A stretch of DNA of 35,976 bases from Acidimicrobiia bacterium (lineage in GTDB: Bacteria > Actinomycetota > Acidimicrobiia > Spongiisociales > UBA5794): contig JABDJC010000048.1 in NCBI GenBank assembly GCA_013003395.1, positions 66,615 to 102,590 of the forward strand, given 5' to 3'. The position numbers and the translations under genes were made by a program. Under the pieces are notes generated by a model. It did no database searches. It was not told the origin of the DNA and was given only the letters and a program-made list of their open reading frames with translations. How positions within the stretch are numbered: position 1 is the stretch's first letter; the number at the start of each line of letters is the position of its first letter. Of this stretch, positions 28,987 to 31,411 are shown in pieces.

Positions 28987-30363
28987 TCAGATCCTTTCGA
29001 AGTAGCGCGCCCGTTCGAAGTCGGTGACGGCGCGGCGCGCTGCCTCGATCTCGACCTCGGCGGCGCGCACGTAGTGGTCCACCACGTCGTCACCAAGGGC
29101 CTGCCTCGCCATCGGGCTGCTTCGCAACTCGGCAGTTGCCAGCTCGAGCGTCTGAGGCACGTGCGGCAGGTCGGCTTCGGAGTAGACGTCACCCACGAAC
29201 ATCTCGGGCGGTTCGATCTGCTGTTCGATACCCGCCAGTCCGGCAGCTATCGACGCCGCGTACGCCAGGTACGGATTGACGTCTGCGCCGGGAATCCGAC
29301 ACTCGATACGCAAACTCGGACCTTGCCCCACCACTCGAAAACCCGCAGTCCGGTTGTCGCGTGCCCACGCAACTCGCGTCGGCGCCCACGAGAGATCCTG
29401 GTACCGCTTGTAGGAGTTGATGGTCGGTGCGTACATCACCATCAGATCATTGAGGTAGCGCATCCACCCACCGAGAAACCAGCGGAATCGATCCGACACC
29501 TGCATCGCCCCCAGTTCGTGGTCGCCGGCGAAGGCGTTCGACTCCCCCTCCCAGAGGCTGAGGTGGATGTGGCAGCTGCTCCCGGCTTCCTCGGTGTGCG
29601 GCTTGGCCATGAATGTGACGCTCACGCTCTGGGCATCCGCCGTCTCTTTGAGGCATTGCTTGAAGATGACGTGGCGATCGGCCATCGACAACGCGTCTGC
29701 GTACCTGACGTTGATTTCGTGTTGCCCCCTGCCCCACTCCCCTTTGGAGTTCTCTACGGGGACGCCGGAGTGGCGCAGGTTTCGCCGCACCGCGCCCACG
29801 AAGGACTCGACGCGCGCTCCCTGCATGAGGTGATAGTCCTCGATGTACCAGCCGGCATGTTCCAGATTGGCGTACCCCTTGGCGTGTGCCTGCCGGTAGG
29901 AGTCGCCGTACAGGAAGAACTCGAGTTCGGACGCGGCCATGACGGTGAGACCGTGATCCGCTGCTCGATCGAGCTGGCGCCGCAGGATGCTCCGGGGCGC
30001 AACGGAAACCGGCGCATGGGTCTCGACGTCGACCAAATCGCACAACACGAGAGCTGTGCCTGGCAACCACGCAGCCCGACGCAGGGTATTCAGGTCCGGA
30101 ACGAGGTGGAAATCTCCGTAGCCCTGCTCCCAACTGGCGTAAGCGAAGCCGGCCATCGGTTCCATCTCCATGTCGACCGTGAGGAGATAGTTACAGCTGT
30201 GAGTGCCTGCCGATACGCCTTCATCGAGAAAGAAGTGCCCGTCGAATCGTTTCCCGACGAGGCGCCCGTAGTGATCTGTGAACGCCATGACGACCGTGTC
30301 GATTTCGTCGGCGTCGACAAGCGTACGCAAACTCTCAACAGTCAACATTCCATCAGTTGCCAT
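28987..30363 (-). CDS. Glutamine synthetase-like ligase (PuuA/GlnA3-type)
   Basis: This 458-residue enzyme has the glutamine synthetase fold. The N-terminal beta-grasp part holds DTVVMAFTDHYGRLVGKRFD. The catalytic half carries SELEFFLYGD, GRGQHEINVRYADAL and SSCHIHLSLWEG, and the ATP/metal end has SLRIECRIPGADVNPYLA. It lacks the true GlnA regulatory tyrosine loop and resembles the gamma-glutamyl-amine ligases that act on polyamines or ethanolamine. ATG 30363 (MATDGMLTVESL) is the preferred start, with 30348 as an alternative. The open frame continues upstream to 30990 through the tandem repeat, but that part has no GS homology and is not translated in my reading. Confidence 0.85.
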   Translation of the reverse strand: MATDGMLTVESLRTLVDADEIDTVVMAFTDHYGRLVGKRFDGHFFLDEGVSAGTHSCNYLLTVDMEMEPMAGFAYASWEQGYGDFHLVPDLNTLRRAAWLPGTALVLCDLVDVETHAPVSVAPRSILRRQLDRAADHGLTVMAASELEFFLYGDSYRQAHAKGYANLEHAGWYIEDYHLMQGARVESFVGAVRRNLRHSGVPVENSKGEWGRGQHEINVRYADALSMADRHVIFKQCLKETADAQSVSVTFMAKPHTEEAGSSCHIHLSLWEGESNAFAGDHELGAMQVSDRFRWFLGGWMRYLNDLMVMYAPTINSYKRYQDLSWAPTRVAWARDNRTAGFRVVGQGPSLRIECRIPGADVNPYLAYAASIAAGLAGIEQQIEPPEMFVGDVYSEADLPHVPQTLELATAELRSSPMARQALGDDVVDHYVRAAEVEIEAARRAVTDFERARYFERI

Positions 30364-30485
30364 CGTCGAAGTCCAAGCTGTCGGTTGACGTCGACGATAG
30401 AGCACAGCGCCGGAGCGCACCGCAAGAGAACGCCCACCGGTCGCCGCGCCGAAGGCCGACGGACGCGTTCGACGTTTACCCGTTG

Positions 30486-30650
30486 TGCCCCCTCCGCTCC
30501 TAGCGGAGCTTCCTCCCCCAACCGTCTCCTCCGTCGACGGGGGAGGAAACCGAACTCTCACCCTCGCGACGAAGCGATCGTCGCTCTGTCCCCCTCGCGA
30601 GCGCCAGCGAGTGTTGGGGGGACCGCGGCCTCCTAGGCCGCAGGGGGGCA
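30486..30650. other. Predicted structured element, copy A
   Basis: The copy can fold as a multi-branched structure. P1: TGCCCCCT (30486-30493) with AGGGGGGCA (30642-30650). P2: GCTCC (30496-30500) with GGAGC (30505-30509), loop TAGC. P3: TTCCTCCCCC (30510-30519) with GGGGGAGGAA (30539-30548). An extra hairpin GCGACG/CGTCGC (30566-30584). P4: GTCCCCC (30588-30594) with GGGGGAC (30617-30623), plus inner CTCGC/GCGAG. P5: GCGGCCT (30625-30631) with AGGCCGC (30635-30641). Which strand is transcribed, if any, is not known. It may be an RNA or a DNA cruciform. Confidence 0.65.
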
Positions 30651-30719
30651 TCACCGTACGAGAACGCCCACGGTCGCCGCGTTCCGAGCTCAACGAACGC
30701 GATCGACCTTCACCCGTCG

Positions 30720-30883
30720 TGCCCCCTCCGCACCTAGCGGTGCCGCCTCCCCCAAACGTCTCCTCCGTCGACGGGGGAGGAAATGAACACCCGTCCCCTG
30801 ACCAGCGCAGCGAGTTCTCTCTGTCCCCCTCGCGAGCGCAGCGAGTGTTGGGGGGACGCGGCCTCCTAGGCCGCAGGGGGGCA
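30720..30883. other. Predicted structured element, copy B
   Basis: It has the same architecture as copy A. P1: TGCCCCCT (30720-30727) with AGGGGGGCA (30875-30883). P2: GCACC (30730-30734) with GGTGC (30739-30743), the same TAGC loop with a swapped base pair. P3: CCTCCCCC (30746-30753) with GGGGGAGG (30773-30780). P4: GTCCCCC (30823-30829) with GGGGGAC (30851-30857). P5: GCGGCCT (30858-30864) with AGGCCGC (30868-30874). The variable hairpin between P3 and P4 of copy A is not kept. The linker before it can form GCGTTC/GAACGC (30679-30700). Confidence 0.65.
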
Positions 30884-30982
30884 TCACCGTACGAGAAGGC
30901 CCTAGATCGCCGCTCTGCGAGTCTCATCTTCTGCTCATTTGGGACCAATCGTTGGCTCATCTGATGGCTTGACCATGGCGTC

Positions 30983-31411
30983 ATGGACACATCACCACCT
31001 CAATCCACGCTTGTCGACGTTGCTGGCACCTTGGTCTTCATGCAAGGCGCCGTCGGTGTCATGTCGGTCGTCGAGTCTGGCGTTGCGACTGTCGCCGGCT
31101 TCGCCCCACCCACGAACCTGCTGTTGACCGCCATCCTCACGGTCGTGCTCTTCTTGTTTGCCCGCGGGCTCAGGCGTCGATCCGTTCGTTCCCGCATGTG
31201 GACGCTCAGGATCGAATCGCTACTCATTGTCTGGGCGACCGTTGACTTGGCCTTGGCCGTGGTCTTGGCAGATTCGGGTCTTGGCCTCGTGGCGACGCTG
31301 ACACGACTCGTCGTGCCGATCGCAACTTTCTGGCTGCTTCGTCGTCCTGCCGCCCGCCTCGAATTCGGCAGTCTCCGACGTGAGGTCGAGCTTGAGGAGA
31401 TGACCGTATGA
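30983..31411 (+). CDS. Small membrane protein paired with the following gene
   Basis: This 142-residue protein has about three to four hydrophobic helices (TNLLLTAILTVVLFLFARGL, ESLLIVWATVDLALAVVLA, LTRLVVPIATFWLLRR) separated by basic loops (RGLRRRSVRSRMW), and ends with an acidic, soluble tail (REVELEEMTV). I recognise no family. Its stop overlaps the next start by four bases (ATGA), so the two proteins are probably made together and may form one membrane complex. It is the first gene to the right of the tandem repeat. Confidence 0.75.
   Translation: MDTSPPQSTLVDVAGTLVFMQGAVGVMSVVESGVATVAGFAPPTNLLLTAILTVVLFLFARGLRRRSVRSRMWTLRIESLLIVWATVDLALAVVLADSGLGLVATLTRLVVPIATFWLLRRPAARLEFGSLRREVELEEMTV

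Follow-up and report, generated by a model that had tools for sequence, protein, structure and literature searches.

A tandem, multi-branched intergenic repeat of Acidimicrobiia, probably of the BIME/BOX kind

The array between two divergent genes

The window, i.e., the whole stretch of 35,976 nt analyzed here, contains on its forward strand an array of direct repeats at 30418..30922, made up of a junction piece, two full units and the partial linker of a third unit. The array fills the gap between two divergent genes, as a sequence-only reading of the window had described: a minus-strand gene at 28987..30363 with a glutamine synthetase catalytic domain (Pfam Gln-synt_C) and a plus-strand gene at 30983..31411 with no Pfam match. 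In the register of that reading, unit 1 (234 bp) spans 30424..30657 and unit 2 (233 bp) 30658..30890. Direct-repeat spacings of 234 and 233 bp bear out both lengths, and the units were also recovered by blastn and, for unit 2, by a nucleotide profile. They are about 88% identical, with repeat blocks of 91 nt (89% identity) and 72 nt (88%) between them. A third, partial copy of the junction lies at 30885-30904, and the repeat is slightly longer than originally delimited, at about 30418-30922. The structured core of unit 2 (30716..30886) was matched with 193 bits by R1, a covariance model of the element's core. A conserved 3' terminus, delimited by information content at array ends, follows each unit: CACCGTACGAGAAC after unit 1 (30652..30665), where information content drops at 29 array ends, and CACCGTACGAGAAG after unit 2 (30885..30898), all on the plus strand.

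The element carries no protein, as had been proposed. Across 56 copies, core lengths are not multiples of 3 (remainders 19/25/12) and no frame is consistently open, and a protein-coding role was rejected on these grounds. The glutamine synthetase reading frame (28987-30990, minus strand) stays open across the whole array to 30990, which is probably chance in G/C-rich DNA, since the glutamine synthetase proteins of relatives align from the start at 30363.

Fold and hairpins of the unit

As plus-strand RNA, unit 1 is predicted to fold into a single closing stem that encloses the hairpins P2, P3, one module hairpin, P4 and P5 (-116.8 kcal/mol, z = -3.29), and none of 200 shuffles reached equal stability. 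The minus strand folds more weakly (z = -1.99); unit 2 folded as single-stranded DNA gave z = -2.64. The layout of a closing stem with several hairpins is thus the one read from the sequence at the outset; the further claim that both units fold identically holds for the stems and fails for the middle segment, which differs between them.

The following plus-strand coordinates refer to unit 1. The P0 hairpin (30439..30473, GGTCG.CGCG/CGCG..CGAC) lies 5' of the closing stem and is often the start of an array's first unit; 87% of its stem cells are paired over 34 copies. The closing stem P1 is formed by GTGCCCCCT (30485..30493) and GGGGGGCAT (30643..30651). Within it lie P2 (30496..30509, GCTCC-TAGC-GGAGC; GCACC-TAGC-GGTGC in unit 2), P3 (30512..30546, CCTCCCCC..GGGGGAGG), the variable module hairpin (30566..30584, GCGACGA-AGCGA-TCGTCGC), P4 (30588..30623, GTCCCCC TCGCGAGCGCCAGCGA..GGGGGGAC) and P5 (30625..30641, GCGGCC-TCCTA-GGCCGC). 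P1, P3 and P4 are supported by the predicted fold and by stem counts, P5 by the predicted fold and P2 by compensatory changes.

Among copies in the own genome, P1, P3 and P4 are nearly invariant, and P2 occurs in four compensated versions (GCACC/GGTGC, GCTCC/GGAGC, GCGGC/GCCGC and GCGCC/GGCGC) or is cleanly absent. In 27 copies, both sides of P2 had changed in 18 cells, with the same result on 34 copies, and the absence of stem covariation, once put forward as a finding that would count against a structured element, was therefore not observed. The whole-structure covariation score of the 27 copies, in which the stated structure is counted, was reached by 0 of 500 shuffles. RNAalifold detected almost no covariation in the within-genome alignment because most stems are invariant and P2 was omitted. 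The compensatory hairpin changes could stem from template-switch correction of palindromes and not from structural selection.

Between P3 and P4 lies a stretch of some 0-100 nt that holds 0-4 degenerate copies of the hairpin module TCTGTCCCCCTCGCGAGCGCAGCGAG. When the first half of the core was aligned to the reverse complement of the second, the mean score was 17.0 against 8.9 for shuffles (sd 1.8), a value inflated by the hairpin layout common to both halves. The alignment of the halves as inverted copies covers most of their length, so that the unit can be described, roughly, as two halves of two hairpins each, one the inverse of the other. A multibranch minimum-energy fold was obtained for 37 of 56 cores from the own genome, compared with 153 of 1120 shuffles (14%), and for 5 of 8 copies from other families, compared with 18 of 160 shuffles (11%). 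In genus g12, just 2 of 12 copies gave this fold; an alternative central hairpin competes there and is usually the one predicted.

Copies, borders and relatives

A blastn search with one unit returned 112 matches, spread over more than 30 contigs of the own assembly (3.24 Mb, 247 contigs, 82% complete). An iterated nucleotide profile, run on the stretches around these matches, resolved 121 pieces. They group into 40 arrays, which have from one unit to five or more and contain up to 10 pieces each; truncation of copies is frequent, as is interruption by another repeat. A contig end lies within 300 bp of 25 of the 40 arrays, so the array count is a lower bound; the repeats probably break assemblies, and their copy number is then underestimated. 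Adjacent units share 79% identity versus 69% for units of different arrays, some of which are possibly two ends of one broken array, and 38 of 52 units have their nearest relative in another array. This combination is consistent with dispersal and additional tandem duplication in place. The greater likeness of adjacent units is also what a mere satellite-like duplication of a G/C-rich spacer, of no wider significance, would produce. Such a reading has next to nothing left in its favor, being refuted by the roughly 40 dispersed arrays and by relatives across the order.

A second dispersed repeat, GTAGAAGACAGCGCCGGAGCGCCAGCG..GATCAGAGGCCGAACAGGACTCAGATCGC, has about 25 matches in the own genome, some of them standing alone. 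It is nested in P5 of about a dozen units, where it replaces the 5' arm, and was recorded at loci L050, L062, L064, L065, L066, L071, L074 and L075. A trace of it may be present in the window at 30405-30417 (CAGCGCCGGAGCG).

In 29 array-terminal units, conservation ends abruptly after the 14 nt of the 3' terminus, and most arrays end there. At the 5' border, the first unit either begins close to P0 or is cut off at a position that varies. The element resembles MITEs (PMC10969869) in being small, non-coding, foldable, dispersed and probably non-autonomous, and differs from them in that inspection of the 40 array borders revealed neither terminal inverted repeats nor target-site duplications.

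Of 31 genes lying 3' of an array, 24 point towards it (binomial p = 0.003), as do 14 of 26 genes lying 5' of one. The difference between the two sides is not significant (Fisher p = 0.09), and an orientation bias towards gene 3' ends is only suggestive. Among 17 arrays with both neighbors known, two lie between divergent genes, the window array being one of them. Neighboring genes are unrelated from copy to copy and occur in several orientations.

R1 was run on 138 genomes of the order, and the architecture was found in 19 of them, from 13 genera; within the own family, g12, g7 and g19 are genera with matches. The absence of further copies, likewise named at the outset as a finding that would count against the element, was thus not observed. 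A phylum-wide search, of low sensitivity with only 8 candidates scored per genome, yielded no match in 345 other genomes, leaving the own genome as the sole match among 346. A DNA pattern for P4 matched named records of Acidimicrobiia and Acidimicrobiaceae MAGs. No matches were found in phages, plasmids or viral contigs, and a phage or plasmid origin was rejected. In these relatives, the layout persists while hairpin sequences differ widely, and the palindromes often match on both strands; for genus g12, an alignment of its own sequences was too heterogeneous to be of use. Upstream of the glutamine synthetase gene, 9 of 10 relatives have no element, and in G027 the site is occupied by a copy of that genome's own lineage. 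Because the orthologous sites compared lie in other genera, they can suggest insertion rather than loss at this site, not establish it.

Two related loci showed further peculiarities. At L085 (G069:C116), the R1 match is a lone two-hairpin half-unit (CTCCCCCTCAGGGGGAGGTGCCGCCCGCAGGGCGGCGGAGGGGG), as if half-units also existed alone. At L093 (G070:C120), the element is preceded by a tandem repeat of another kind, about 112 bp long (..CATCGTCTCCACGAGGGGGGCTCACCTGCCC..), apparently the repeated 3' ends of a tRNA-like sequence.

The strong fold, the compensated stem changes, the conservation of the architecture over genera and the position of arrays near gene 3' ends would all suit a family of functional structured RNAs, i.e., regulatory ncRNAs or mRNA 3'-end elements under RNA-level selection. 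This explanation appears unlikely, given copies beside unrelated genes, arrays of up to 10 often truncated or interrupted pieces, palindromes that in relatives often match both strands, and the lack of an Rfam match. At the Rfam gathering cut-off, neither the window nor 12 related loci gave a match (best sub-threshold E = 0.53). The sequence-only reading had left open a dispersed structured repeat or an ncRNA: the 112 genome hits, the order-wide relatives and the P2 covariation support the former, and a dedicated ncRNA is not supported, given the unrelated neighbors and the missing Rfam match. The family looks like a new one of the small dispersed repeat kind and not like a dedicated RNA gene.

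The mobilizer and known repeat classes

RAYTs are the usual mobilizers of REP/BIME repeats. The own genome encodes one RAYT-like Y1_Tnp gene, and the hairpins of the element might be classical REPs moved by this transposase; the inverted relationship of the unit halves (17 versus 8.9 in shuffles) and the tandem units, as in BIME-2, would agree with that. The gene, however, lies on a 6.5-kb contig without an array, the repeat at its flanks is another one (TGGGGTCGGGCCTCACTAGGTACAAG), and no Y1_Tnp was detected in the other 137 genomes of the order, 18 of which bear the element. RAYT was therefore rejected as the mobilizer, and a RAYT-driven REP/BIME family, already largely refuted, is very improbable. 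The palindromic repeat TGGGGTCGGGCCTCACTAGGTACAAG itself flanks the genome's sole RAYT-like transposase at L157, 4807-4925 and 5946-6022 (G000:C226), with several copies on one side and inverted copies on the other. A reverse transcriptase was likewise rejected, as no RVT_1 was found in the own genome. The search for RAYT and RVT_1 thus identified no mobilizing enzyme for the element; as the assembly is 82% complete, a mobilizer gene could be missing from it.

Composed roughly of two inverted two-hairpin halves, the units form arrays that resemble BIME-2. With the BIME-2 and REP elements of enterobacteria and pseudomonads they share high copy number, intergenic location, tandem series of palindromic units in inverted pairs, compensated stem changes and the formation of chimeras with a further repeat family (PMC2817692). 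The 112 blastn hits and 121 profile pieces exceed the roughly 100 extragenic palindromic copies per genome that mark REP/BIME families, and palindromic units alternate in orientation, their pairs standing in tandem, although the layout common to both halves inflates the score behind this. The element differs in its half-unit, which has two hairpins in about 70 nt where a REP is one 20-40-nt palindrome, in its common 3' terminus, in its extra variable hairpin modules and in having no cognate RAYT flanked by the repeat, either in the own genome or in the 137 others of the order (PMC2817692).

The second point of comparison is BOX of Streptococcus pneumoniae, a boxA-boxBn-boxC composite (PMC3049150). 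In both, the ends of a composite repeat are constant and the number of hairpin modules inside it varies (0-4 here), and both are intergenic, near gene ends and interrupted by other repeats; the element, unlike BOX, is very G/C-rich, also forms tandem arrays of whole units and is spread over an order (PMC3049150). Sequence identity with boxA, boxB or boxC is unlikely in so G/C-rich an element, and the comparison is one of architecture.

By nature and behavior, the family belongs with the small structured interspersed repeats. We consider it probable that the array represents one site of a BIME/BOX-like family of structured repeats, intergenic and non-autonomous, in an uncultured acidimicrobial bacterium. 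Its copies would be spread by an enzyme that acts in trans and recognizes the folded strand, preferably into sites beside a gene's 3' end or beside a copy already in place. Units and hairpin modules may then be gained locally, through slippage or tandem duplication. Where it is read through, the element would probably do no more than give neighboring mRNAs a very stable structure at the 3' end or in the leader. More tentatively, and with considerable doubt, this could be an order-wide composite folded family that moves without RAYT. Its enzyme would recognize the multi-branched fold of the strand and set the 3' end at CACCGTACGAGAAC, and stems would be remodelled by paired changes.

A literature search of open-access papers found no report of such repeats in Acidimicrobiia. 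The kind of repeat is known; its architecture and missing mobilizer are not. In this family, BIME-like units, inverted and in tandem, are joined with variable modules reminiscent of BOX, and the question arises what mobilizes REP-like repeats in the absence of RAYTs.
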